DNA from: a virus
DNA: 64,000 bases
Direction: 5' to 3' (one strand)
Virus record (IMG/VR): IMGVR_UViG_3300018424_000008
Span: 35,414 to 99,413 of that record
The notes under the pieces: model-generated
What the model was told of the DNA's origin: nothing
Databases searched by the model: none
The model's input: the letters and a program-made list of their open reading frames with translations, nothing else
Shown: positions 7,663-61,708 of the stretch, piece by piece
How the letters are laid out: every line of letters starts with the position of its first letter
Position numbering within the stretch: the first letter of the stretch is position 1
Made by a program: the position numbers and the translations under genes

Positions 7663-8466
7663 CTATTTCCTTGAAGGCAATGTGCCGTAATGATAATACT
7701 TCATAGTATCTTTATATTGCTTTCGTAAACTTTTAATAGCTTCTCGAATCATTTTTAATGCTTGTCGACCATCCGAAAAAGAAGCAAGATCCTGACGATC
7801 TTTTTCATACTTAGCATCACTCAAATACTTTTCCAAATTGTTAGCTGCCCTAATGATATCCTTTTCTAAAACAAAATTATTAATGTATTTATGAAGCCTG
7901 GTTCTGTCCGCCAAGTCTTGACCAAAAAACCCGATGTCGGATCCTTTAAAACCAAACTCATTCCCAGTATCACTTTCCATTCTTTCATTAATTGTTTTTA
8001 TCCATATATCTTCAGCTACACGGGACAAATTATAAACTTGATTATTTGTATAACCACGCAAATTCAACATAAAAGGAGGTATACGATCGTCAAAGTTTCT
8101 ATCAACTGTACCCGGACCATCAGGGTTAGGTACCTCTTCATCATGTATTCTTGATATCATTTCCATTTCTTCTGTATAGCCTTTACTTTTATCATAAAAC
8201 CCGTACGGCTCATTAATTAATGGTGCAACTAATGCATCCGTTTGCTTGCCATCATCAGCCCGCAAAGTGGCTAACTTATCACCATACTTTTCTTTCTGTT
8301 CATCAGACAAATACTCTTCCGGAGGCTTACGACGATTTGGAGCATTTTTTGTAAACCAATGTTGATACGTGTGCGGCAATGACCGTTGAACCAAATTAGG
8401 CTGAGTTATAACGTTTTCAATCGCTTCTCTAATAAAATATCGAAGTTGCCTTTTTGTAAGCCTCAT
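7663..8466 (-). CDS. Type A leader protein, SLPHTYQ family copy 1
   Basis: Function unknown. The leader variant is M-R-L-T-K-R-Q-L-R-Y-F-I-R-E-A, with the cut predicted at I12-R13-E14 before A15. It is a clear paralogue of the gene at 9053-9859. Shared blocks are S-L-P-H-T-Y-Q (about 29-35), Q-K-E-K-Y-G-D-K near 60, D-A-L-V-A-P-L-I-N-E-P near 80, S-K-G-Y-T-E-E near 95, and a C-terminal helix with R-K-Q-Y-K-D-T-M-K. The unrelated 148-residue gene lies between the two copies. Confidence 0.9.
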   Translation of the reverse strand: MRLTKRQLRYFIREAIENVITQPNLVQRSLPHTYQHWFTKNAPNRRKPPEEYLSDEQKEKYGDKLATLRADDGKQTDALVAPLINEPYGFYDKSKGYTEEMEMISRIHDEEVPNPDGPGTVDRNFDDRIPPFMLNLRGYTNNQVYNLSRVAEDIWIKTINERMESDTGNEFGFKGSDIGFFGQDLADRTRLHKYINNFVLEKDIIRAANNLEKYLSDAKYEKDRQDLASFSDGRQALKMIREAIKSLRKQYKDTMKYYHYGTLPSRK

Positions 8467-45971: not shown

Positions 45972-46166
45972 TTAATCAATTCTCATTAATTCTCCAAAAG
46001 GGTGTATACTCTCAGTTCCATCTGACCATCTTACTTTGTACTTTGCTACTTTAGAGCTTGTACCTTCAGTTAGCCATGTATTAGTTGGAACATACACTAC
46101 GTCTATTACTTCACCTTCTTTTGTTATATCATAAAATAAAGACACTCTGTTTCCTGGTTTAATCAT
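45972..46166 (-). CDS. Small SH3-like barrel protein, 64 aa
   Basis: It starts K-P-G-N-R-V-S-L, then [10 protein letters not shown] and [15 protein letters not shown], the most standard G-x-V...V-R-W-x-D-G pattern of the group. It could bind nucleic acid or protein. It overlaps carB by eight bases, so it is translationally linked to the carbamoyl phosphate synthase pair. Confidence 0.75.
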
Positions 46167-49100
46167 TATTATCCCCTATTTGTTGTAAACTTCTAACAAT
46201 TATTTTTTCTTTATCAGCTTTTGAGGCTATAGCTTTTATTAACTTTGTCATTGCAAATAAACTTGTTATACAAGGTATATCCTGCCTTAAACACGCTAAC
46301 CTCAATTTTGCTTCTTCATTAATATGTTCTTCACCACTGGTTGTGTTTAATACTAAATCGATTTTTTTATTTGCTATCAAACTTATTGAGCTATTCTGTC
46401 CTGCAAGGAATTTCTCAGACAAGTTAACTTCTAATCCCATCGATGTCAATATTTCATACGTGCCTTTAGTAGCATATATTTCACAACCAAAATCATTTAT
46501 CAAATGTTTTAAATAATCACGTGACTTTATAAAATAACTTTTATCTTTGTCAGCAATAGAGATCAGTATATTAGATCTTTTCTTAACATTAATGCCACTT
46601 GCTAACAAAGCTTTTAGATAAGCCTCATGCCACGTACTTCCAACACCCATTACTTCACCAGTACTTTTCATTTCTGGTCCTAACAATGTATCATCAACAG
46701 AGAATTTTCTCCATGGGAAGACTGGTGATTTAACATAAAACAAATTCTTTCTATTTCTTTTAAACTTCTTCATTGTCTCATTTAGGTTTTCACCCATACA
46801 CATGTAGGTTGCTATCTTTGCCCATGGTACACCAGTTGCCTTACTAGCAAAAGGTACAGTCCGGCTTGCTCGAGGATTGACTTCTATAATATAAACCTCA
46901 TCTTCTTTAATAGCAAACTGAATATTCATTAGTCCTACTACATTCAAGACATCACATAGCTTATCACATATTGTTTCTATTTTACTACGCTGTTTTTTCG
47001 TTAATGATAGTGATGGTATAATACAAGAAGAATCACCAGAATGTATACCAGCTTCTTCTATGTGTTCCATTACAGCAGCTATTTCATAGTTACCAAACTT
47101 ATCGCAAACAACATCAACATCATATTCTATTGCATTTGATAAAAACTTATCTACCAAAAGCGGCTTCCCATTACTAGCATCATAAGCCTTTGTAACTGCA
47201 CTATTAAATTCTACATCATTATAACAAACGTGCATACACTTACCACCTAAAACATAAGAAGGTCTAACCAATACTGGGTAACCTAATTCATCTTTTGCTT
47301 TATGCGCATCTGATATACTAGCAGCAATAAAACCTGGTGGTTGTTTGAAGCCTAAATCTTTAATCATGTTATTAAACAATTCTCTATCTTCACATATGTC
47401 AATAGATTCAGGATCAGTACCACAAATATTACCTATTTGATTAGCCAACTTAAGAGGTGTCTGACCACCAAACTGAACAATGGAACCTATTAGATTTGTG
47501 TCTAATGTCTTTACAATATTATCAACATATGTTTTTGTAATAGGTTCGAAGAACAATATATCACTAGTGTCATAATCAGTTGAAACAGTTTCCGGATTGC
47601 AGTTAACCATTGCACTAGTGTAACCTAACTCTTTCAAAGCCATGCTCGCATGTACACAACAGTAATCAAATTCAAGACCTTGCCCTATTCTATTTGGACC
47701 ATTGCCTAATATCGTTACAATGTTTGATTTATCTATTGGTAATTCACACTCATAGCCAGTAGTGCTATACAAATATGGCGTTTCTGATTTAAATTCAGCT
47801 GCGCAAGTGTCAACCATTTTAAAGACAGTGTTATCTAGCTTGGTCTCAGCAAACATGTTTTCTAAAAACCATGTGTCTATCTTTGTTAAATTATGTATAT
47901 CAGATATAGGAGTATTACGTGACATCAACTCAAGTATTTTAAATATTCTATCAGGTTGTGGCACTTTAATATCTTCTAACAAATCTTCAGTTGCTACTAA
48001 GTTGTAACTAGGCAACTTAAGCTCTAATGATAAAAGTGCTTTTTGCATTGCTTCACTAAAACTGGTGCCAATGGACATTACTTCCCCGACAGCCTTCATT
48101 TGTGTAGTTAAGGTACTGGTTGCACCTTTGAATTTTTCTGTATTCCATCTGGGTATTTTTACAACAGTGTAGTCTAAAGCTGGTTCAAAACAAGCTGGTG
48201 TCTTTTTAGTTATATCATTGTTTATTTCACCTAATGTTAAACCAACTGCTAACTGCGCTGCTATTTTTGCTATAGGGAAGCCAGTAGCCTTTGAAGCCAA
48301 AGCAGAACTTCTCGACACACGAGGATTCATTTCTATAACAAACATATAACCAGTTTCAGGATCGACAGCAAACTGAATATTTGAACCACCAGTTTCTACA
48401 CCGACTGCACGAATAACATCAAAAGACATTGTACGCATTTTTTGATACTCTACATCAGTTAACGTTTGTGCTGGAGCAACAGTAATACTGTCACCAGTAT
48501 GTACACCCATAGGATCAAAGTTTTCTATAGAACAAACTACAATAGCATTATCATCTTTGTCTCTGATTAATTCCATTTCAAATTCTTTCCAACCTAATGC
48601 ACTTTTTTCAATAAGCACTTGACTGATAGGACTTAAATCTAAACCTAATGAAACTATTGAATAAAATTCTTGTTCTGTCATGGCAACACCACCGCCTTCT
48701 CCGCCTAATGTGTATGAAGGTCTGATAATTAATGGTAAACCAATATCATTCAATATTTGTTTCGCATCATCTAAGTTATGAGCTATACCAGAAGGAGCAA
48801 CTGGTATACCTTTTTCAATCATCTTATTTTTAAACATTTCTCTATCTTCAGCAATTTCTATTGCATCAGGCTTTGCCCCAATTAATTCAACGTTGTGCTC
48901 ATCTAAAACACCTAACTTATATAACTCCATTGCTAGATTTAAACCAGTTTGACCACCGACTGTTGGTAATATTGCACATGGTTTTTCTTTCTCAATAATC
49001 TTTTTAGCGTATTCTGCTGTCAAAGGTTCAATGTATGTAGCATCAGCAAATTCTGGGTCAGTCATAATAGTTGCCGGATTTGAGTTATGTAATACAACCT

Positions 49101-49227
49101 CGTACCCTAAATTCTTAAGTACCTTACAAGCTTGTGTACCTGAATAATCAAACTCACATGCTTGTCCAATTACTATAGGTCCTGAACCTATAACCATAAT
49201 TTTTTTGATATCATTTCTTTTAGGCAT
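46159..49227 (-). CDS. carB: Carbamoyl phosphate synthase large subunit
   Basis: CarB makes carbamoyl phosphate from bicarbonate, ammonia (from CarA) and two ATP, for pyrimidine and arginine synthesis. It is complete: 1022 residues from [17 protein letters not shown], against about 1070 in bacteria. Both ATP-grasp halves have their signatures ([14 protein letters not shown] near 300; [14 protein letters not shown] near 840), and a C-terminal regulatory domain follows. The start is set at ATG 49227 by AAGGAG and the usual CarB N-terminus, overlapping carA by eight bases. Confidence 0.97.
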
Positions 49228-50317
49228 TAAAACTCCTTGCAAATTCAATAAATTGTTCTATTAGTTTGTTACTTTCTTCTGGGCCAGGTTTGGCTTCAGG
49301 ATGATATTGTACACTAGAAACCTTGTTTTTATAACACTCAATTCCAGCCACCGTTTGATCATTTAAATTTATATGTGTTATTGTCGCTATTTCACCAATA
49401 CTTCTATCAACACAATAACCGTGATTTTGACTAGTTATAGCTATTTTTTTAGTTTTTAAATCTATAACTGGATGATTTGCACCGCGGTGGCCAAACGGCA
49501 TTTTGTAAACTTTCCCGCCTATAGCAAGTGATATCAGCTGATGACCCATGCATATACCTAACATTGGCTTTGTTCCCATTATAGATTTAATCTTGTCGAT
49601 AGCCTCTGTCATAACAGTGGGATCGCCTGGTCCATTACTAAAAAATAAAGCATCACAGTCATTTGTCCAATTAAATAAACTGTCATTTACATTAACGACT
49701 GTGACATCACAACCATACTTAGTTAATAATCTCGAGATATTACTTTTGTAACCGCAATCTATTAAGTTAACTTTAAAACCATTGCCAGTTTTTGTTTTAT
49801 TTACAGTAAATGATCTAGAAGCATCAGAAGCTTTAGATTCATCTTCATAACTAAATTGATCTAACAATTTCTTAACAGAGTTTCTATCCTCACTAGATAT
49901 ACATGCAACAACATTCGTATTATTTCTAATTAATTTAGTGATATATCTAGTGTCAATACCACTAACCAGTGAAAACTTATTTTCCTTAGAGTATTCAACT
50001 ATATTTTTCTCTGATCTCCAGTTGCTAGGTTTTTTAATTAAGTCAATATTCCTAGCCAATAAACCTCGAGGCCAAACCCTTTCAGATTCTACATCTGCAG
50101 TGTTTACTCCCGTGTTTCCAATATGATTAGCAGTCATCAATACTATTTGACCTTTATATGATGGATCAGTTAAAATTTCCTGATACCCAGTCATACTAGT
50201 ATTAAAAACCAATTCTCCTATTGTAGTGCCAGAATACCCATTGCTTTTAACAGGGTAATCAACATACATGTTTTTTTGATTTCCATCTTTGTATTTAATA
50301 TATAATCTAGTTTCCAC
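49220..50317 (-). CDS. carA: Carbamoyl phosphate synthase small subunit
   Basis: CarA is the glutaminase subunit and feeds ammonia to CarB. It starts with GTG at 50317 after AAGGAG. The N-terminal domain is [19 protein letters not shown]; the C-terminal class I amidotransferase has G-I-C-M-G-H-Q (active Cys near 252) and Y-H-P-E-A-K-P-G-P (His339, Glu341). At 365 residues it is of normal length, about 380 in bacteria. It follows the leader gene at 50327 by nine bases, so both are probably one transcript. Confidence 0.97.
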
Positions 50318-51414: not shown

Positions 51415-51443
51415 TTAAAAAAAGAGAGGGACATGCCCTCTCT
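51415..51443 (-). terminator. Intrinsic terminator
   Basis: Minus strand: AGAGAGGG / CCCTCTCT stem (8 base pairs, 5-base loop) followed by TTTTTTT. It lies 95 bases after the stop at 51538 and closes the adenosine deaminase and ClpS unit. Confidence 0.9.
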
Positions 51444-51537
51444 TAACAACTAACAATAAAGAAGTATCACAACTAATATGATATACTATACAGCCTTTTC
51501 TTTTGTTGTATAAAACACCAAAACAGCCTTTCCTTTT

Positions 51538-51978
51538 TTAATATTTTAACGGTAAGCCTTCATGTTTTTTACATCTAACTTTATGCCAACCTTTAGTTTC
51601 TAGAACACCAGGTTGACCACATATTTCACAAGTCTTAGCTGATAATGATTCTGCAAATGAAACCAATCCTTCTATAAAGTCATCATTGCCATCATAGTAA
51701 AATCTTAGTGTCCCATATTTCTCTTTTACCTGGCATGCTTCAACTATTGTGTTAACATGATCTTCAGGCAACCACTGCTTTCTATATGCATGTTTACCTT
51801 CACCATTGATGTAATCCACACGATCCTGAATTTCAGCACTTAAGGTATCTAATATATTATACCAACCGTCACCACACGCAAAGCCAAAACACATCAGTGA
51901 TCTTGTGTAAGGCTCATCTTTTTGTCTGTAAAGCTTTGGATACTTTTTAAATAAATCATCTTGTAATTCTTTTTTCAT
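51538..51978 (-). CDS. Phage-typical zinc-binding protein, 146 aa
   Basis: It matches a recurrent phage protein type by pattern: K-K-Y-P-K-L-Y near 13, F-G-F-A-C-G-D-G-W-Y near 32, V-K-E-K-Y-G-T-L-R-F-Y-Y near 90, and a zinc site at the end, C-E-I-C-G-Q-P-G...C-K-K-H. No function is known to me. It is the last gene before the terminator and lies eight bases from the adenosine deaminase gene. Confidence 0.8.
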   Translation of the reverse strand: MKKELQDDLFKKYPKLYRQKDEPYTRSLMCFGFACGDGWYNILDTLSAEIQDRVDYINGEGKHAYRKQWLPEDHVNTIVEACQVKEKYGTLRFYYDGNDDFIEGLVSFAESLSAKTCEICGQPGVLETKGWHKVRCKKHEGLPLKY

Positions 51979-51986
51979 ATATACTC

Positions 51987-52868
51987 CTAAAAAAATCTAG
52001 CTGCCCTAGCTGACTTCATGCAATGTTTAATATGTTTGTCAGTTAAACCACACTTAGTTCTAAGTTTCTGAATTTCCTGACTAGTAGTTATTTTTGACAT
52101 CAAAGTATTATCAGCACATATAGCAACTGGCATATCAAGCTCAATCCATTTCTTAATTGGATGGTCTTCTTCACTTAAGAATATTCCAGTATGCACATTA
52201 CTGGTTACACATGCCTCAATAGTTATTTTTTTGTCTCTAAGAAACTCTATCAACCATGGTATTTCTAACACACTTGTAGCATGTCCTATACGCTGCACTT
52301 CTAAATAAGTAACTGCTTGATATATTTCAACAGAATTTCTGCCTTCAGCTACATGTGCTGTCCTACCGAAACCCAGGTTTTTAGCTTCTTTGTAAGCATC
52401 TTTATAATCAAACAGTCCATATTTATGATTAGGTTGAGGTGCACCTGCTAGATCAATACCTACAACTGATTGGAATTCTTTTCCTTTGTCAATCAAGTTT
52501 TCTAAAATAGATGGGTGTTCCCCATATAGTCCACACAATATTAGATTGTAGCCATATTTTAAACCATCATGTGCTGCTTTAATTACACTAGTAATATCTT
52601 TAGAGTGTAACTGAGGTGCAAACCTTATCTCTGCATATTCAACACCGTCATTTTTTAAATCGTCACAAAGCTCGGATGTAATTCTAGTGATATTATTCAT
52701 ATCTTTCATGACAGCCACAGTTTTATGGAACATACCTAAAGCATCAATCAAACTCATGCCTTTTTTAAAACCAAAATCTGATGTGACATCAATATTGTAA
52801 TATTTAGCTAATTCTAAAAATGTTTCGCGTCTAATAGAACCATCTAAATGCACGTGTAACTCATACAT
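51987..52868 (-). CDS. add: Adenosine deaminase family protein, 293 aa
   Basis: It deaminates adenosine or a related purine nucleoside to inosine. The family motifs are all present: H5-V-H7-L-D-G-S for zinc, H-V-A-E-G near 190 with the catalytic Glu, R-I-G-H-A-T-S near 213, and A-D-N-T near 265. At 293 residues it is shorter than bacterial Add (about 330). The final C-V-T-S-N-V-H-T-G fits this family. Its start shares one base with the clpS stop. It may help purine recycling during infection. Confidence 0.9.
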   Translation of the reverse strand: MYELHVHLDGSIRRETFLELAKYYNIDVTSDFGFKKGMSLIDALGMFHKTVAVMKDMNNITRITSELCDDLKNDGVEYAEIRFAPQLHSKDITSVIKAAHDGLKYGYNLILCGLYGEHPSILENLIDKGKEFQSVVGIDLAGAPQPNHKYGLFDYKDAYKEAKNLGFGRTAHVAEGRNSVEIYQAVTYLEVQRIGHATSVLEIPWLIEFLRDKKITIEACVTSNVHTGIFLSEEDHPIKKWIELDMPVAICADNTLMSKITTSQEIQKLRTKCGLTDKHIKHCMKSARAARFF

Positions 52869-53203
52869 TATACCTCCTCTGCTTGTACTAAAAGTGGATG
52901 CTGACTTTCTTTGGCTAAACTCATTGACTTTTTAACTTTCATAGCTGCTATTTCTTTGTTATATGTACCGGCTATTCCTTTACCGTTCTCATGTACGTCC
53001 ATCATGATTTTCCATGCAGTCGCCTCATTATGTCCGAACACCATCATCAGTACTAACCATACAAATTCCATTGGGGTATAGTCATCATTATAAAAAACTA
53101 CATTGTATTTTTTTGGCGGTGTTAATTTAGACTTCTCCTCATTCCTGTCTTTTAAATCAACCCCTCCTCCGCCTGTACTTTTACTTTTCTTTTTTTGTGT
53201 CAT
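52868..53203 (-). CDS. clpS: ClpS adaptor
   Basis: ClpS delivers N-degron proteins to the ClpA-P protease. The core is V-V-F-Y-N-D-D-Y-T-P-M-E-F-V (residues 35-48; N39 and D40 correspond to the ligand-binding pair) and V-H-E-N-G-K-G-I-A-G-T-Y (about 70-81), with the C-terminal A-A-M-K-V. The N-terminal 30 residues are lysine- and glycine-rich and not conserved. It could redirect host proteolysis, including of newly trimmed cargo with altered N-termini (inference). Confidence 0.92.
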   Translation of the reverse strand: MTQKKKSKSTGGGGVDLKDRNEEKSKLTPPKKYNVVFYNDDYTPMEFVWLVLMMVFGHNEATAWKIMMDVHENGKGIAGTYNKEIAAMKVKKSMSLAKESQHPLLVQAEEV

Positions 53204-53429
53204 TGTTACCTCCTTTTTGTAAAATTACTAAATCTTTTTTGTGACATGTCATTATACTGCCATCTTCAAAAAGTACGTCAAAATCTACAACTCTCCACGG
53301 ATCCATTTTTAAAACTATGCCAACAGACCCAGTTTTTACCGGTTTCCAACCTTGTTCACCAGTCCACCTAACTAAATCACCAACATTAACAACGTGATTC
53401 CAATCTTTCATCCTTTGTTCCCAACTCAT
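53181..53429 (-). CDS. Small GDLV barrel protein, 82 aa
   Basis: N-V-G-D-L-V-R-W-T-G near residue 15, T-G-S-V-G-I-V-L-K-M, V-L-F-E-D-G-S and K-D-L-V-I-L: a small SH3-like barrel pattern. The ATG at 53429 has GGAGG six bases upstream. It overlaps both neighbours. The C-terminus is lysine-rich. Function unknown. Confidence 0.78.
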   Translation of the reverse strand: MSWEQRMKDWNHVVNVGDLVRWTGEQGWKPVKTGSVGIVLKMDPWRVVDFDVLFEDGSIMTCHKKDLVILQKGGNNDTKKEK

Positions 53430-53616
53430 TTACAACCTCCAAAAATGATTTACTTATAGAATATGAATTTCCTGAATATGCCCAATAAACTATCACACAT
53501 GTAGGATCATATTTATTGACACTAACAATTAAGCCATACTTGCCAGACGTTTTTATTAACATCCTATTTATACAACCTTCAGATACTTTTCTTTTAACAA
53601 GATCGCCTACCTTCAT
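53386..53616 (-). CDS. Small GDLV barrel protein, 76 aa
   Basis: It starts M-K-V-G-D-L-V-K-R-K, followed by G-L-I-V-S-V, V-I-V-Y-W-A and a final helix with E-V-V-N-E-L-G. Its overlap of 44 bases with the next gene is long, so the two ends may be read by coupling. Function unknown. Confidence 0.75.
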   Translation of the reverse strand: MKVGDLVKRKVSEGCINRMLIKTSGKYGLIVSVNKYDPTCVIVYWAYSGNSYSISKSFLEVVNELGTKDERLESRC

Positions 53617-53827
53617 TTTGCGTCTCCATAAGTTTTAAATGATAATTCATAAAACACTTTTCTTTTCCTTCAACCAAAACGATAACTCTTGTCTGACTTC
53701 CATCATGCTCGTATAACTTTTCTATTAATAACCCAACTGCTGGTCTCCAAGTAGGACAGCCAGAAAATTTACACGTGTTTGCGTGGTCTGGATAATGTTG
53801 TATGTATACTAGGTCACCTGCCTTCAC
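53594..53827 (-). CDS. Small GDLV barrel protein, 77 aa
   Basis: It starts M-K-A-G-D-L-V-Y-I-Q-H. C-K-F-S-G-C-P-T-W-R-P near 20 adds two cysteines, then V-G-L-L-I-E, V-I-V-L-V-E-G-K and C-F-M-N-Y. The insertion makes it the most elaborate of the small group. Overlaps on both sides. Confidence 0.75.
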   Translation of the reverse strand: MKAGDLVYIQHYPDHANTCKFSGCPTWRPAVGLLIEKLYEHDGSQTRVIVLVEGKEKCFMNYHLKLMETQNEGRRSC

Positions 53828-53972
53828 TGACTAACTCCATTAAAATTTCAGGTTTTTCAACTATATTTCCGGACTGTAGAAGGACATGCCACCGGGTGTT
53901 GCAATATGCAGGACTTATTATAATTCCATAACTTTGCTCATCCCACATTTGTACTAAATCACCTACTTTCAT
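53814..53972 (-). CDS. Small GDLV barrel protein, 52 aa
   Basis: A short gene starting M-K-V-G-D-L-V-Q-M-W-D-E at ATG 53972, with GGTG four bases before it. It continues Y-G-I-I-I-S, W-H-V-L-L-Q-S-G-N-I-V and ends E-L-V-S-E-G-R, with TGA at 53814. Its strand order and the G-D-L-V start match the neighbouring genes, and it overlaps the following gene by 14 bases, as the others do. Confidence 0.75.
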   Translation of the reverse strand: MKVGDLVQMWDEQSYGIIISPAYCNTRWHVLLQSGNIVEKPEILMELVSEGR

Positions 53973-53980
53973 TATTCACC

Positions 53981-54583
53981 TTACTTAATCCATCTGAGTG
54001 TTGTGTCACCTTCAAATCCTTTTTCCCAAATTAACCATGCATAACACAGCGGCTGACCACCACTATATTTAACCTGATCATTATTTTTAAAGATACGGAT
54101 ACGGGAAGAAAACACGTAAACAAATTTTGGTGGAAATTTCTTGAAAAACTCGTGGCGACCTTTGCTTTCTAGGAATTGAATACGCATTAAAAATGCCGCC
54201 TTATACCCTTCACCAATACTCTCTAATGCCTTTTCAATAAATTTTTTACCAATATTATATGGTGGATTAGTAACTATGTTTCCTTTCCACTCGTCAGGCT
54301 TGTCATATTCTAGAAAGTCCAATACTTTGTGACCGGTACCATAATCATGAATATCTGTTTCATGTACTGTATATCCTAATTCTCTCATCGCGTTTGATAA
54401 ATTTCCATCTCCGCATGCAGGCTCCCAAATATTGTTGCCTTTCCAAAAAGAGTTTCCCTCATCTTTTTTTACTGCTGAAAATAAATCAAACAGTGCTTGA
54501 GGATCTGTTGCGTAATAATCTCTAACTTGTCTTTCTTCAGCGCCATGTGCAGTTGATCCGATTATTCTCATTGATTTGCTCAT
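53981..54583 (-). CDS. Adenine-specific DNA methyltransferase-like protein, 200 aa
   Basis: A class I methyltransferase fold: E-P-A-C-G-D-G (residues 54-60) is the SAM-binding motif and N-P-P-Y (106-109) the adenine- or glutamine-type catalytic motif. It lacks an obvious target-recognition domain, which is normal for small phage enzymes. The target base is probably adenine in DNA, but protein methylation cannot be excluded. It is separated by nine bases from the 52-residue barrel gene. Confidence 0.78.
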   Translation of the reverse strand: MSKSMRIIGSTAHGAEERQVRDYYATDPQALFDLFSAVKKDEGNSFWKGNNIWEPACGDGNLSNAMRELGYTVHETDIHDYGTGHKVLDFLEYDKPDEWKGNIVTNPPYNIGKKFIEKALESIGEGYKAAFLMRIQFLESKGRHEFFKKFPPKFVYVFSSRIRIFKNNDQVKYSGGQPLCYAWLIWEKGFEGDTTLRWIK

Positions 54584-54590
54584 TTTAAAC

Positions 54591-54932
54591 CTATTTTAAA
54601 AAAAATTGTACTGATATCAAAGATAAACAAAGAAAAAATGAAAGCACATTTTTAACTGTTATAATTTCTTCACCTAAAAAATGCCAAGTCAAAGGTATAA
54701 ACACTAAATAACCTAATCCGAAAGTTAAAAAACGTATAGACCACAGAGTGACACCTTGTTCATACATCATCTTAGTTGCAACAGCAAACATAACTGAGAC
54801 AATTGGGCCAAATAATAAAGCAACATATATATAATTTTGTGCCATCCATCCGCCAATAATGCCAGAATTTGACTGGAACCATGCCAAGGTTTGAGCAATT
54901 GCAAAAATAGCACCCGCTAAAAAAGTTTTCAT
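54591..54932 (-). CDS. Four-TM protein, SMR-like candidate, 113 aa
   Basis: I used ATG 54932, with GGAAGG upstream and a four-base ATGA overlap with the MT-A70 gene; the frame extends to 55016 inside that gene. Four hydrophobic helices (near residues 2-18, 30-50, 62-82, 92-112) and a length of 113 match small multidrug-resistance transporters, with F-L-G-E-E between helices. The typical membrane Glu of SMR helix 1 is not visible, so function is open. Confidence 0.6.
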   Translation of the reverse strand: MKTFLAGAIFAIAQTLAWFQSNSGIIGGWMAQNYIYVALLFGPIVSVMFAVATKMMYEQGVTLWSIRFLTFGLGYLVFIPLTWHFLGEEIITVKNVLSFFLCLSLISVQFFLK

Positions 54933-55507
54933 TTTATAACCTTCCTTAAGGGCATAGGAACTCCTGCAAGAAAATCTTGGATAGTACCATTCAATTCTAG
55001 ACCGAGGCAGTCCCACCCCGGACGATATCTTCTTGCAAATAACTCAAGCTTCTCACAGTCAACCCAATGTTCATCGATACGATCTTGAATAGCCTCAGGT
55101 TTTTTTGAGTGTTTTGTCCTAGCTTCTGATAAAAACTGCATAGTATTTGTCTTTGCTCTCTTAGGACACTTTCCTTTCTTCCCGACCAACACATACTCCA
55201 CTTGGGAACAGGAATACCACCCGGGATTTGGGATTCGTTTATCCCATACAAATGCCATAGTCGAATACTTAAAGCCCCAAGCTTTCATTAATTGAAACGC
55301 TTCAGGCATTTTAGGCCCTGTCGCCCAAAGATACAAAACACAATTTTTCGCCATTACATTTCCGATTGGAAGAGAACACATTTCTTCCATCGACATTGTC
55401 GCATATTCATCTTCAATACCAGCAATATGTGTTCCATTGTTTTGTGCCATTCTTCTAGAATTATACGGCCACGGCGGATCCGCAAGTATTATGTCATATT
55501 TTTTCAT
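54929..55507 (-). CDS. MT-A70-type adenine methyltransferase, 192 aa
   Basis: An N6-adenine methyltransferase of the MT-A70 family. It has D-P-P-W at residues 10-13 (catalytic motif), Y-L-W-A-T-G near 61, W-V-D-C-E-K-L-E-L-F-A-R near 150 and R-P-G-W-D-C-L-G near 163. It may mark phage DNA against host restriction. It is the second adenine methyltransferase within 2 kb, which points to two target sequences. Confidence 0.92.
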   Translation of the reverse strand: MKKYDIILADPPWPYNSRRMAQNNGTHIAGIEDEYATMSMEEMCSLPIGNVMAKNCVLYLWATGPKMPEAFQLMKAWGFKYSTMAFVWDKRIPNPGWYSCSQVEYVLVGKKGKCPKRAKTNTMQFLSEARTKHSKKPEAIQDRIDEHWVDCEKLELFARRYRPGWDCLGLELNGTIQDFLAGVPMPLRKVIK

Positions 55508-55564: not shown

Positions 55565-55768
55565 TTATTTTATTACCTTGTAATACGATGTGGGTCCTTT
55601 TGAAGTATGATTTAAAGCGCCCCAGTATACCTTAACCCATGGAAGATGGTTTGGCATATTAGATTCAACAAATCCAATTACTAGTCCAAAACCCCATTCA
55701 TCCTGCATGGCAGGGCCTAGACCGGATGGGCTACCTAAATTTAATTTAACTAAATCACCAACATTCAT
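55565..55768 (-). CDS. Small GDLV barrel protein, 67 aa
   Basis: M-N-V-G-D-L-V-K-L-N-L-G, then W-G-F-G-L-V-I-G-F near 25, W-V-K-V-Y-W-G and a Y-Y-K-V-I-K end, the same layout as the others in this group. Its ATG overlaps the stop of the upstream gene (ATGA). Function unknown. Confidence 0.77.
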   Translation of the reverse strand: MNVGDLVKLNLGSPSGLGPAMQDEWGFGLVIGFVESNMPNHLPWVKVYWGALNHTSKGPTSYYKVIK

Positions 55769-55953
55769 TTTTTCTCCATTTCAGTGAGTATTTTTTTAAG
55801 TTTGGAACTTGCTGCATCCGTATATATGTCCGGGTAGAATGCATGAATAAAGACATATATTGCAGCTAATAAAATATTATAACAATAGTACATTGCTTGT
55901 ATAAAATGTTTTTTATAATTTGTTTGCTTTTCTTTTAAATGATTAAATTTCAT
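55765..55953 (-). CDS. Small membrane protein, 62 aa
   Basis: The start at ATG 55953 overlaps the lipoprotein stop (ATGA); the frame reaches 55983 but without a ribosome-binding site. One hydrophobic helix, I-Q-A-M-Y-Y-C-Y-N-I-L-L-A-A-I-Y-V-F, covers about residues 18-38. The N-terminus is basic (positive-inside) and the C-terminus is a charged helix. It may work with the upstream lipoprotein. Confidence 0.72.
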   Translation of the reverse strand: MKFNHLKEKQTNYKKHFIQAMYYCYNILLAAIYVFIHAFYPDIYTDAASSKLKKILTEMEKK

Positions 55954-56846
55954 TCTACGTGCCCTGTACCAATTACAGTCCATGTTTGATGTGATTCAAT
56001 AATACCACCTAATTCAGGTGCTTCAGCTTTCTGCACACTGTGTCTACTTAAATACACAGCCGCTAATGACCAATATGGGTATGACTGAAAATAAGAATTA
56101 GGTATCGACATAGAGCCAGTGTCATATTCCATACATGAGACCACACCTAAAAGTTGAGAACCATCTGGGGAATATACAGCTACCATTATTTCAAACATTT
56201 CACCAGATACAGATGGGTACCAACTAAATTGTGTTGGATAATTTTTTGATATAAGAGCTTCGAATGCATAAGATGGATCTACCCATAACAACGTATAAGG
56301 TTCTATACTATCAAACCCTTCTAGAGTTTTAAAAGCATTTGGCGCTGATCCATGCTGTGTTGTGATAGAAAGCATCGTTCTTCTTGGTACTTGAAACTCA
56401 TATATGTTTTCTTCCAGCCATTCGCCGGGTCCAGCCGGATCTAAAACTATATCATTAAAAGTAGCGCTTTGTGTAGCGGCTAATGGCGTAGATGATACAT
56501 AACTTTCAATTAATTGACCACTACATGTGCCTACTGGTGTTAGCCATTCTGTATAATCACCACTGGTTGGTTGATGTAATTTGAGATTAGCTGATATATC
56601 AAACTCACTAGAAACACCAACGCATGCAGGACAAGCTATTTGAGCAAAATGTAATTCTGCAAATCCTACAGTTTTACTTAAATCACCCGAACTAGGTTCT
56701 GATGTGGGTGATGCCGTATTTCCAGGTTCAGATGGTTCAACCCATGGATCTAGTGTATCTGTAACTACAGCACTATCATAGGGCGTATCATCATATCTTT
56801 TTATTATACTTACATCTTGTGTACAACTTAACAAACAAACAAACAT
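55950..56846 (-). CDS. Lipoprotein, 298 aa
   Basis: Signal peptide M-F-V-C-L-L-S-C fits a lipobox (L-L-S-C8), so the mature protein should be lipid-anchored in the envelope. A P/S/T-rich linker (S-E-P-G-N-T, S-P-T-S-E-P-S-S) follows up to about residue 55. The rest is beta-rich, with C-P-A-C near 75 and C-S-G near 110. The style resembles lipoproteins of deltaproteobacteria-like groups, a weak hint about the host. A role in superinfection exclusion is plausible. Confidence 0.75.
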   Translation of the reverse strand: MFVCLLSCTQDVSIIKRYDDTPYDSAVVTDTLDPWVEPSEPGNTASPTSEPSSGDLSKTVGFAELHFAQIACPACVGVSSEFDISANLKLHQPTSGDYTEWLTPVGTCSGQLIESYVSSTPLAATQSATFNDIVLDPAGPGEWLEENIYEFQVPRRTMLSITTQHGSAPNAFKTLEGFDSIEPYTLLWVDPSYAFEALISKNYPTQFSWYPSVSGEMFEIMVAVYSPDGSQLLGVVSCMEYDTGSMSIPNSYFQSYPYWSLAAVYLSRHSVQKAEAPELGGIIESHQTWTVIGTGHVE

Positions 56847-56870
56847 TTAACTTCTCCATTTTATTTTTAC

Positions 56871-57815
56871 TTATACCTTTATCTCTTTAAAGTCTTTATC
56901 ATAAACCGGGTATCTATCCGAAAATTTTATTATTAATTGTTTGTACACATCTGGCAAAGAATTCCAACTATATTCAGTCATGACAAAACCTTTAATAGAC
57001 CAGTTATCTATAATAGCTTCATGCATTGACTCTCGACCGTAATGAGAAAAATTCTCTTGATTTGTTATCAATAATTCAGGTTTCCCTGTAAATTTTACGT
57101 CTTTTACCCCTTCTCCTCTTTTTTTCCCTGCGAAATTATCAGTTTGCCCGTCGCCACCGAAAGCATAGACCAAATCACCTTCTACAATAATTCCAACATC
57201 ACCCCACGTACGATCAACTACACCGGATTTTGGGTACCCAATAACAGATACTTCATCTTCTGGTTCAACAACATTTCCTTCTATAAAAGCACGAAGATAT
57301 TCTGGTTTTTGAAACCCATGTACCCAGACCCACTGGTTAAAAAAAGACATGTCAGCATGCTTTTTCCATTCTTTTTTTATTAACGTTCCTGTTGCATCGA
57401 TGTTTTTTGGATCCGATCCTGCTAATATTTTTTTGAGCCATGGCAACCAAGATGGTATCTTTGATTGACCTGGTAAAGGCTTCCGAAATCCAAGAGCTAC
57501 TTGGACTTCTCCTTTAGGGCCTTTTAAACGTGGTCTTCTAACTTCTTCGTATTCCTGCCTTGTAAATTTATGTTTAGTTCTTGCAAGATTAGATAGTCCA
57601 TCAGGTTTAAGAGTTATATAGCCTCCGGAGAAAACTTTAGCAAATTTATTGCCCGATGCGTTTTTCATATTACCAAATTTTATAGATTTTAAATATTCTA
57701 ACTGTTGTTCTTTTGACAAATTGTCATATTCTTCAACAGACAAGACTTTAAAGTCTTGTTGTTCTCTAAGAAGAAATTTTCTCCAGCTTTCCATTATTAA
57801 TTTCATATTACTCAT
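56871..57815 (-). CDS. Leader-bearing DNW-module protein, 314 aa
   Basis: The leader variant is M-K-L-I-M-E-S-W-R-K-F-L-L-R-E within the first 18 residues, with two sites (I7-M8-E9, L16-R17-E18). ATG 57815 has AGGAG six bases upstream. The DNW signature reads V-G-I-I-V-E-G-D-L-V-Y-A-F (about 205) and H-E-A-I-I-D-N-W-S-I-K-G (about 263). W-V-W-V-H-G-F near 165 may give the histidine of an ART-like fold. It overlaps no neighbour and follows the nucleotidylyltransferase by one base. Confidence 0.85.
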   Translation of the reverse strand: MSNMKLIMESWRKFLLREQQDFKVLSVEEYDNLSKEQQLEYLKSIKFGNMKNASGNKFAKVFSGGYITLKPDGLSNLARTKHKFTRQEYEEVRRPRLKGPKGEVQVALGFRKPLPGQSKIPSWLPWLKKILAGSDPKNIDATGTLIKKEWKKHADMSFFNQWVWVHGFQKPEYLRAFIEGNVVEPEDEVSVIGYPKSGVVDRTWGDVGIIVEGDLVYAFGGDGQTDNFAGKKRGEGVKDVKFTGKPELLITNQENFSHYGRESMHEAIIDNWSIKGFVMTEYSWNSLPDVYKQLIIKFSDRYPVYDKDFKEIKV

Positions 57816-59810: not shown

Positions 59811-60804
59811 TAATAACTTCCAAATGTTTTATTCTAAATATTTCTACTTTTTTATTACACAATACTTCTACTACCATTCCACTATTAAGATAATTGCTAT
59901 CACCAAATATTTTGCTCAGTGTAATTCCCACAGTAGTAGGATCTTCATCTTCATCATAATAGCAGCCTATATAACCTTCTTTTAACTTTACTAATGTGCC
60001 GATCGGAGTTTTTTGATTAATACTAATTAATTCTAATCTTCTTCTGTTCATAAGTTTTATAAAAGTGTCTATCTCTTCAGGCAACACGTGATTTCTTAGA
60101 CCAGTTATGTAGTTATGTATTATACTAGCAACATGGTAAAGTTTAAAATATTCTTTTGACATTAGCTTGTAATCTTTTAATTTTACATACGCTTCCATTT
60201 CAAACTCTAAATGATGTGTGTGTATGTAACTTAAGTAAGCATCATGACTAGCTACTAACTTCTTAAAAACATGTTCGTCCATTGAGTATTTTTTGCCTTG
60301 TCTCTGAAACTTTTTTACTCTTAGATTAAATATTTCTAGAAACTGTTGATTATCATTTACATAACTGTCAAAAAATTTATTCCGAATATAAAACTGGATA
60401 ATGCCCATTTCAGATCTTAACCGGTTTGTAAAACAATATTTAAGACTTTTAAACAATGAGTTTAAAATTTTAAAATGAGGATCTATATTATTTTTAAAAC
60501 CAAAAAAAATATCGTTATCATTTTTGTTCAGAACTATATGAAGCACATTTAGACAAGCTGCCATTTCCTTATATATACCATGTGCTCTATTACGCAAAGG
60601 CCTATGTTTTTTCTTTCCACTGTTTGAAAGACTGTTCTGTCTTCTCACACGTTTAGGAATAAGTTTGTAAGTATTTTTCAAACACATATCAACAAACTTT
60701 GCTGCATGTGGTAGATTTGATTTTACACATTTTTCTTTCAAAACTTTTATATCTTTTTCACATGTGTATTTAAGTGCTCCATAACTTTCATGCACACTAC
60801 GCAT
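59791..60804 (-). CDS. Helical protein with C-terminal GTLV barrel, 337 aa
   Basis: The start ATG 60804 is preferred because AAGGAG stands seven bases upstream. Residues 1-260 are basic and helical (K-K-K-H-R-P-L-R-N-R near 65) without a known family. Residues 268-335 are a copy of the small barrel: I-G-T-L-V-K-L-K-E-G, V-G-I-T-L-S, M-V-V-E-V-L and K-H-L-E-V-I. This shows that the barrel can be a fused module. It may bind nucleic acid. It overlaps the UV endonuclease gene by eight bases. Confidence 0.8.
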   Translation of the reverse strand: MRSVHESYGALKYTCEKDIKVLKEKCVKSNLPHAAKFVDMCLKNTYKLIPKRVRRQNSLSNSGKKKHRPLRNRAHGIYKEMAACLNVLHIVLNKNDNDIFFGFKNNIDPHFKILNSLFKSLKYCFTNRLRSEMGIIQFYIRNKFFDSYVNDNQQFLEIFNLRVKKFQRQGKKYSMDEHVFKKLVASHDAYLSYIHTHHLEFEMEAYVKLKDYKLMSKEYFKLYHVASIIHNYITGLRNHVLPEEIDTFIKLMNRRRLELISINQKTPIGTLVKLKEGYIGCYYDEDEDPTTVGITLSKIFGDSNYLNSGMVVEVLCNKKVEIFRIKHLEVINETNKQ

Positions 60805-61708
60805 TACCATGCTCCTTTAAATATTTGATGACTGCTTGCTCTTTAGCTTTTGCTTCAATGACACAATCGAAGTCATTACCATAATCGTTAATAAATGAAT
60901 ACACGTATTCTGAATGTGCACGGAAAGGAGCTTTTTTACCTTCTACTTGTGCACTTTCAGAATAGTGGGTTGTTGGTCTTACATTATCCCATGTACTAAG
61001 CCCTAATTCAAGCGCTTGTTGTTCTGTCAAACCATCAGGGTGACAGACGTGATGATGATAATCAAACACTATAGGTATACCAGATTTTTCATATATCATT
61101 TCATGTAATTCTTTTGTGCTGAACAAACTTACTCTGTCATCATTCTCAACAGTTAATCTTGGTTTAACAGCATCACTTAGCTTTGCAAAATTTTGTAAGA
61201 ACCTGTCAGCTGTTGCTTTTTTGTCACCATAAGCACCACCCACATGAATATTGATTTTACCATAATGGTTTCTTGGTACGCCCAATAAATCCATGATTTC
61301 ACCATGTGTTTCTAATTCTTTGATAGAGTTTTTTATAACCTTTTCATTCTTTGATGCTAAGACCACAAACTGACCAGGATGAAATGATAATCTTTGGTTT
61401 GTTTGTTTTGCAAAATCGCCACATTGCTTTAATAAAGCGAAGCAACGTTCTGCATTAGGTAAATCAGAAAGATTATATTCTGATGACCATGGTGCCATAT
61501 TTGAAGTCATACGATATACATTAAACCCATTATTAGCATTCCACTGCAGTATTTCATACATTGCGTTAATATTGCGTTCAAATATTTCACCCACGTGTGG
61601 CAAACCTTTTGATTGCCATGTCGCTTTACGACACGTTCCACCAGGTGTAAGTTTCTTTGTTTCAGATAAATGTAGGTTAATGCAAGCGTAACCGAAACGA
61701 ATAGACAT
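60797..61708 (-). CDS. uvsE: UV damage endonuclease (UVDE family)
   Basis: This enzyme nicks DNA 5-prime to UV photoproducts and starts an alternative excision repair. The sequence carries the family metal-binding blocks F-H-P-G-Q-F near 108, H-V-G-G-A-Y-G-D-K near 155, E-N-D-D near 190 and D-Y-H-H-H near 217. Length (303) is normal. It has AAGGAG before ATG 61708 and a strong promoter at 61735-61763. It fits a phage exposed to sunlight. Confidence 0.93.
   Translation of the reverse strand: MSIRFGYACINLHLSETKKLTPGGTCRKATWQSKGLPHVGEIFERNINAMYEILQWNANNGFNVYRMTSNMAPWSSEYNLSDLPNAERCFALLKQCGDFAKQTNQRLSFHPGQFVVLASKNEKVIKNSIKELETHGEIMDLLGVPRNHYGKINIHVGGAYGDKKATADRFLQNFAKLSDAVKPRLTVENDDRVSLFSTKELHEMIYEKSGIPIVFDYHHHVCHPDGLTEQQALELGLSTWDNVRPTTHYSESAQVEGKKAPFRAHSEYVYSFINDYGNDFDCVIEAKAKEQAVIKYLKEHGNA

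Follow-up and report, generated by a model that had tools for sequence, protein, structure and literature searches.

A large phage carries a clpS gene that overlaps an adenosine deaminase gene by one base; the pair recurs in related viral contigs and may act on host protein and purine turnover

Organization of the clpS-add locus

The window, meaning the whole stretch of DNA analysed here (64,000 bases), covers bases 35,414-99,413 of a 99,413-base virus record that is linear and probably a partial virus sequence. Its GC content is 34.6%, and a tRNA search confined to the window found no tRNA genes. Open reading frames (ORFs) of the record were derived mechanically and are not gene calls. The features around clpS and add are listed below in window coordinates, in the direction of transcription.

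55950-56846, minus: gene for a 298-aa lipoprotein-like protein, with relatives upstream of clpS in other phages
53181-53429, minus: 82-aa ORF overlapping the clpS start (from the ORF list)
52868-53203, minus: ClpS N-degron adaptor, 111 aa (PF02617, pocket and ClpA-contact residues, predicted model)
51987-52868, minus: adenosine deaminase family protein (Add), 293 aa (PF00962, zinc and catalytic residues, predicted model)
51538-51978, minus: 146-aa protein of no assigned function, the next cistron after Add and a widespread viral orphan
51422-51444, minus: intrinsic-terminator-like hairpin with a T run (consensus match only)

The original prediction of a ClpS adaptor and an adenosine deaminase with a one-base overlap was borne out, as both ORFs are exactly as predicted, both proteins match their Pfam families and base 52868 belongs to both genes, within the sequence TAATG. 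The 3' end of clpS reads GAG GAG GTA TAA, the final A of the stop codon being the first base of the Add ATG, and the ribosome site of Add, GAGGAGG, sits within clpS. Upstream, the clpS start overlaps the 82-aa ORF by 23 bases, and this ORF, which has a weak and partial relative beside clpS in L002, is the last in a chain of small overlapping ORFs (53814-53972, 53594-53827, 53386-53616 and 53181-53429). Downstream, eight bases separate add from the 146-aa orphan, whose relatives are encoded by 281 viral stretches (the best 80 of the 281 were kept) and which has no match in Pfam, NCBIfam or PHROG. The hairpin at 51422-51444 could be the closing terminator of the unit, in a background where 11 terminator-like sites were found in the 17 kb scanned compared with 7.0 expected from shuffles. 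From this layout, the small-ORF chain, clpS, add, the 146-aa orphan and the terminator-like hairpin likely form an operon in that order.

Further upstream, a first clpS scan found a relative of the lipoprotein-like gene at 7 of its 14 loci, its end lying no more than about 1.1 kb ahead of clpS, and a wider scan did so at 12 of 80 loci. Small proteins starting MKxGDLV or MNVGDLV, which resemble paralogues of one another, are encoded on the minus strand at 53386-53972 and 55565-55768, and similar ones lie near clpS in L239 and L246.

Sequence and predicted structure of the phage ClpS

The ClpS protein matches PF02617 with an E value of 1.6e-28 (98.7 bits; cut-off 23) and falls below the NCBIfam equivalog cut-off (best score 99.3 vs 112); on profile scores it is assigned to the Pfam family and not to an equivalog. 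Residues were compared with an E. coli ClpS sequence, in which we take N34, D35, D36, T38, M40, V43, M62, V65 and H66 to be the pocket positions and E79 and K84 to be the ClpA-contact residues. The window ClpS retains all of these pocket residues, together with Y37, P39 and L99, and both contact residues are present. The sole difference among the residues checked is Phe in place of L32, a position that is variable among viral ClpS proteins.

The window ClpS was aligned with 63 distinct viral proteins (64 rows), and all 64 retain V43, H66 and K84, which are positions outside every search pattern. E79 is retained in 53 rows, V65 in 43 (Ile in the other 21), and M62 in 31, with Thr in 31 and Cys in 2. 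The full conservation of NDD, T38 and M40 in this set was discarded as evidence, because the scans had searched for YNDDYTPM or NDDYTPM and the uniform stretch is in part an artefact of those strings; relatives found through Add do break the NDDYTPM pattern.

The predicted model has a mean pLDDT of 82.8 and gives target-normalised TM scores of 0.91-0.97 against several ClpS chains from E. coli and Caulobacter (query-normalised 0.70-0.79, with the disordered start outside the match), and the matched structures include some with bound N-degron peptides. Sequence identity in these structural alignments is 39-44%, with the fold and the checked pocket and contact residues other than L32 in common. 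The window protein differs in its N-terminal extension, which is longer and Lys/Gly-rich, and in having no clpA gene adjoining its own. This extension places 32 residues before the equivalent of Tyr28; residues 1-16 have pLDDT below 50, and tandem prolines at 29-30 mark the junction. An N-terminal extension with a tandem-proline junction is described as a conserved ClpS feature in PMC9663308. In a tree of 145 rows (64 viral, 80 from bacterial loci selected for being the closest matches, and E. coli), built on few columns and with the window on a long branch, the viral rows fall on one side of a branch (100/91) with the bacterial rows and E. coli on the other. These features suggest that the window ClpS is most likely a working adaptor for host ClpAP.

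The adenosine deaminase family protein

Add matches PF00962 with an E value of 5.9e-49 (167.4 bits; cut-off 27) and scores 175.9 against the TIGR01430 equivalog cut-off of 216.55. H5, H7, H172, E175, H196 and D253, which include what we take to be the zinc-ligand and catalytic His and Glu residues, are invariant in five aligned phage proteins. Asn254 replaces the second Asp of the DD motif, presumably the residue corresponding to D296 of mouse adenosine deaminase, a replacement that makes the predicted substrate of Add tentative. The Asp-to-Asn change was considered as a phage hallmark and rejected, as bacterial relatives also carry NTDNR. The predicted model (pLDDT 89.1) has V. cholerae adenosine deaminase as its best PDB match, with a query-normalised TM score of 0.89. 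Compared with the V. cholerae (6n91) and S. typhimurium (6n9m) enzymes, the fold and the HxH, HAGE-like, GH and Asp metal and catalytic motifs are the same, whereas the window protein is shorter (293 aa) and has Asp-Asn for Asp-Asp-Pro.

The closest cellular Add proteins found are full-length matches of 329-397 bits in 12 of 140 genomes from the phylum of Plesiocystis, where 113 of the 140 genomes have some match and the remaining matches score 204 bits or less. In the phylum of a Woeseiaceae bacterium, 168 of 398 genomes have a match, weaker, with a best of 197 bits. In the Add tree, the 12 Plesiocystis-phylum matches and 16 phage rows, the window included, form one group (100/100). A record labelled Acinetobacter MD-2021a was rejected as a source of phage Add, as its hit sits among nadA, argJ and tRNA genes; this is one of the four MD-2021a Add hits, and an Enterococcus Add record that was also examined carries no annotation.

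Two genes upstream of the unit, both on the minus strand, encode an MT-A70-type methyltransferase (54929-55507, 3e-24) and a DNA methyltransferase-like protein (53981-54583, phrog_799, 2.2e-59). Add may possibly be linked to these methyltransferases through N6-methyladenine.

Recurrence of the clpS-add pair in related viral contigs

A first scan for clpS gave 14 loci, with Add within 6 kb in none of them and anywhere on the whole contigs in none of the 14. The resulting view that the adjacency is not conserved was overturned by wider scans. A wider clpS scan, which found 132 relatives, of which the best 80 were kept and which included those 14 contigs, placed Add in 6 of the 80 loci, all among the first 10 listed; as flanks were 4 kb or less, this is a lower bound. 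One of the 80 (L238), for example, is the contig of L325, whose Add sits further off. A viral scan with the single Add sequence returned no relative. The scan with an Add alignment returned 18 viral contigs, 16 in the Add family of the window (38-52% identity) and 2 distant (26-28%), and 12 of the 16 also have clpS, never more than 5.3 kb from add and always on its strand.

Both gene orders occur among these contigs. With clpS before add, the genes overlap by 1 base in the window and by 4 bases in L240 and L327, and stand apart by 4,423 bases in L325 and 5,281 bases in L328. With add before clpS, a gap of only 2 bases is seen in L242/L244 (the same contigs as L320/L321) and L237 (L331), and wider gaps of 288 bases in L324 and L330, 585 in L319, 729 in L323 and 1,106 in L318. 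The Add tree joins the clpS-first contigs L240, L325, L327 and L328 with L326, which has no clpS, in a supported group (98/93), and places the window, also clpS-first, weakly with add-first contigs (80/85). As both orders are found across parts of the Add tree, the gene order has changed at least once with the two genes kept as neighbours, and this retained adjacency speaks more strongly than anything else here for a shared task. Its weight is limited by the relatedness of the contigs, which makes the adjacency counts non-independent. The pairing is not obligatory, because 4 of the 16 Add contigs have no clpS (L317, L326, L329 and L322, the last of which ends right after add), and clpS often occurs with no Add nearby. 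The idea in the original prediction that the adjacency is meaningful gained ground from the recurrence of the pair, in both orders, in related phages.

Gatekeeper variants among Add-linked ClpS proteins

Met40 of E. coli ClpS is a position that we take to be the specificity gatekeeper, equivalent, we assume, to M53 of Caulobacter ClpS, for which the PDB contains M53A mutants. A gatekeeper role of this Met is also mentioned for plant ClpS1 in PMC7966870. The window ClpS has Met at position 40, and its sequence thus carries no gatekeeper change predicting altered specificity, but some relatives have one. Position 40 is altered in 3 of the 12 Add-linked ClpS rows, the window being one of the 12, to Ala in L318 and L319 and to Phe in L323 (clpS at 8001, 7480 and 7618, respectively). 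In all three, M62 is also replaced by Thr or Ala, and N34, D35, D36, V43, H66, E79 and K84 are unchanged. Elsewhere, L324 and L330 have His at position 39, and K84 is Arg in L327. Because the ClpS proteins of L318 and L319 are 88% identical and those of L324 and L330 are one residue apart, the number of independent changes is small. A scan for further gatekeeper variants returned only 5 contigs, with no new variant.

A tentative and rather doubtful proposal is that a clade of uncultivated large phages has ClpS and Add as a dedicated unit, and that the adaptor has been retuned in some of its lineages, with Ala at the gatekeeper position in L318 and L319 and Phe in L323. If true, a retuned viral N-recognin would alter which N-termini host ClpAP destroys during infection. 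The recurrent pair and its natural gatekeeper variants would be ready-made proteins for studying a possible viral reprogramming of the bacterial N-degron pathway, and the pair also raises the question of what role adenosine deamination has in such reprogramming. Should neither hold, the locus would be another case of host housekeeping genes retained by a large phage.

Shared leaders and predicted new N-termini

The original prediction had also connected ClpS with trimmed N-termini of the phage's own proteins. Many ORFs of the record do share a leader of the type MKxLRKYIRNIL.E, with a conserved Glu at the leader end, and 36 of 119 record ORFs of 90 aa or more have at least three similar N-termini, compared with none after shuffling. 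Proteins of this leader family are encoded at 13619-36841 of the window, on the minus strand, and elsewhere in the record; 18 first-type leader proteins searched against PHROGs had no match. The leaders resemble what we take to be the capsid-targeting leaders of T4-like phages, and cleavage is predicted. The prohead protease search of the record (PF03420) was one in which the control genomes themselves gave no match.

Leaders were counted in this phage and in a second clpS phage, G002, giving 84 hits (34 and 50, respectively). The 37 first-type leaders scoring above 15 were used (21 from this phage, 16 from G002), with 27 hits of a second type and 20 in neither class; two more first-type leaders with Gly after the Glu (record positions 53204-53908 and 56357-57046) lie outside the pattern. 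In the 37, the residue after the Glu is Ser in 12, Gly in 5, Met in 4, Lys and Glu in 3 each, Thr, Ala and Asp in 2 each, and Leu, Arg, Tyr and Val in 1 each. Leu, Phe, Tyr or Trp would thus follow the predicted cut in 1 of 21 leaders here and 2 of 37 in both phages, against a background of 18.7% (binomial P 0.02), and Ser, Gly, Ala or Thr in 21 of 37 against 22.8% (P 9e-6), these P values being generous as the leaders are related. The corresponding frequencies at 212 control sites within these proteins are 20% and 17%. The four Lys or Arg ends could become degrons with an E. coli-like LFTR, and would still be a minority. In the 20 unclassed leaders, Leu follows the Glu once, and Phe, Tyr and Trp never do.

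The second leader type (IIREEY; MKISKRQLRQIIREEY), found 9 times here and 18 times in G002, contains several Glu residues, and the predicted new N-terminus depends on which is used. A cut after the first Glu would expose Glu in 6 of 9 cases here and 14 of 18 in G002. Use of the second Glu would leave Tyr at the new N-terminus of 7 of the 9 proteins here, and in G002 Tyr in 5, Phe in 1 and Lys in 8 of the 18. For the first [ILVM]xE further along the leader, the following residue here is Ser in 3 and Ala, His, Asp, Glu and Gly in 1 each, with no such site in 1, and in G002 includes Ser in 4 and Trp in 2.

Among clpS contigs, shared leaders are found in 47 of 359 ORFs of G002 (3 after shuffling), 6 of 266 in G005 (0), 10 of 251 in G008 (2), 10 of 264 in G010 (1) and 4 of 89 in G003 (0), and are absent from the 91 ORFs of G001 (0) and the 96 of G011 (1), though both of these contigs are short. 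To our knowledge, T4-type phages process such leaders with no known phage ClpS, which also counts against a connection. The leader family itself is thus real, and a second-type cut after the second Glu would favour the idea that ClpS steers the fate of phage proteins newly trimmed after Glu, but the main type, with 2 of 37 predicted N-degrons, points the other way. The proposed link has little support, and we regard this role for ClpS as very improbable.

Partner proteins and known phage ClpS

Profile searches of the 99 kb record for the ClpA N-domain (Clp_N) and CLP_protease gave no match; the same searches were positive in 9 and 12 of 14 control genomes, respectively. When the surroundings of clpS were searched with a bacterial ClpA, 79 of 80 bacterial loci gave a match and none of 80 viral loci did. 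As the record is linear and probably partial, the phage may still encode a ClpA outside it.

ClpS is already published as a phage gene. A role in bringing target proteins to host ClpAP has been proposed for jumbo-phage ClpS (Iyer et al. 2021, PMC7824862), and ClpS is listed in the Agrobacterium phage Atu_ph07 paper (PMC6102473). The Pseudomonas jumbo phages (PA5oct and kin) and Atu_ph07 thus carry a ClpS of the same family as that of the window. The annotated genes within 4 kb of PA5oct clpS include those for Hsp20, ribosomal protein S21 and FtsH, with no Add. In the phage collection, 19 records match ClpS, of which 11 are Pseudomonas phages at 43.8% identity and 2 are Acinetobacter 'phage' records, one of which was examined and reads as bacterial, with clpA adjoining clpS. 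In titles and abstract openings of mostly non-subscription literature, we found no experimental test of a phage ClpS and no description of a clpS-add pair. The pairing, and not phage ClpS itself, looks to be the new part.

Two records labelled Acinetobacter phage (CAKLQH020000046.1 and CAKLQF020000008.1) read as bacterial chromosome in the stretches examined, with nadA, argJ and tRNA genes in one and clpS-clpA in the other. Such records are a trap for phage-gene counts.

Interpretation of the clpS-add unit

The identities of both proteins, the overlap, the intact pocket and interface, and the recurrent pairing were computed here. From these we infer the activities of ClpS and Add, the use of host ClpA, the timing and a common purpose. 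The explanation we favour, with a probability of roughly 0.55, is that clpS and add form a translationally coupled two-gene unit of a large phage in which a working ClpS acts via host ClpA and Add acts as a deaminase, together bending host turnover. The overlapping stop and start codons would hold expression of the two genes in step. The phage ClpS would dock on the N-domain of host ClpA and deliver to host ClpAP those proteins whose first residue is Leu, Phe, Tyr or Trp, these being the N-degron residues given for ClpS in PMC9663308, and its occupancy of ClpA would turn ClpAP away from ssrA-tagged and similar substrates. Add would deaminate adenosine or deoxyadenosine, and the likeliest purpose of the unit would be to shift the host's turnover of proteins and purines in favour of the phage.

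Other explanations bear on different parts of this evidence. The adjacency itself could be an inherited order with no meaning, the pair hitchhiking in a variable block of small genes, in which case ClpS and Add could each still work. The relatedness of the contigs, their varying neighbours and the spacing of 0.3-5.3 kb between clpS and add in 7 of the 12 contigs that carry the two are consistent with this, but the tight arrangements in both orders, overlaps of 1-4 bases in the window, L240 and L327 and gaps of 2 bases in L242/L244 and L237, argue against it, and we consider it unlikely as an account of the pairing. An unlikely reading is that the pair is a counter-defence unit, in which ClpS would feed a host defence protein or antitoxin to ClpAP, or shield it, and Add would remove an adenine nucleoside that a defence system uses or makes. 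The patchy distribution, the adjacency retained through order changes and the altered gatekeepers in 3 of 12 rows, which resemble changing targets, would fit such a role; no defence or counter-defence gene was identified beside the pair, however.

It is also conceivable that ClpS acts as a brake, with excess protein occupying ClpA and blocking degradation of ssrA-tagged and other ClpAP substrates, whatever the N-degron pocket does. Inhibition of the degradation of ssrA-tagged substrates by ClpS is known (PMC9663308), and the contact residue K84 is kept in 64 of 64 viral rows. Pocket residues V43 and H66 are equally conserved, however, and would be needless for a mere brake, and K84 is Arg in L327; we hold this explanation to be distinctly improbable.

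Hints of a host and other genes of the window

A myxococcotal host is hinted at for the phage, since Myxococcota supply the closest cellular Add proteins found and a ClpS with a similar extension. The GC content disagrees, at 0.62-0.76 for the listed bacterial Add loci compared with 0.346 for the window.

Carbamoyl-phosphate synthase is encoded in the window too, with carA for its small subunit and carB for its large one (46159-50317, minus), both above the NCBIfam cut-offs. A viral scan with the single CarA sequence gave no relative, and 30 phage-collection records match CarA. Among the 20 of these that were listed, annotation is missing from 15; a Salmonella record and two Acinetobacter MD-2021a records account for 3 more, and the last 2 belong to Halogranum tailed virus 1 (34%), the sole clearly annotated virus. 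A UV endonuclease gene, UvdE (60797-61708, minus; 1e-57), is present as well, and further UvdE matches lie close to clpS or add in L238, L240, L259, L266, L287, L325 and L326.
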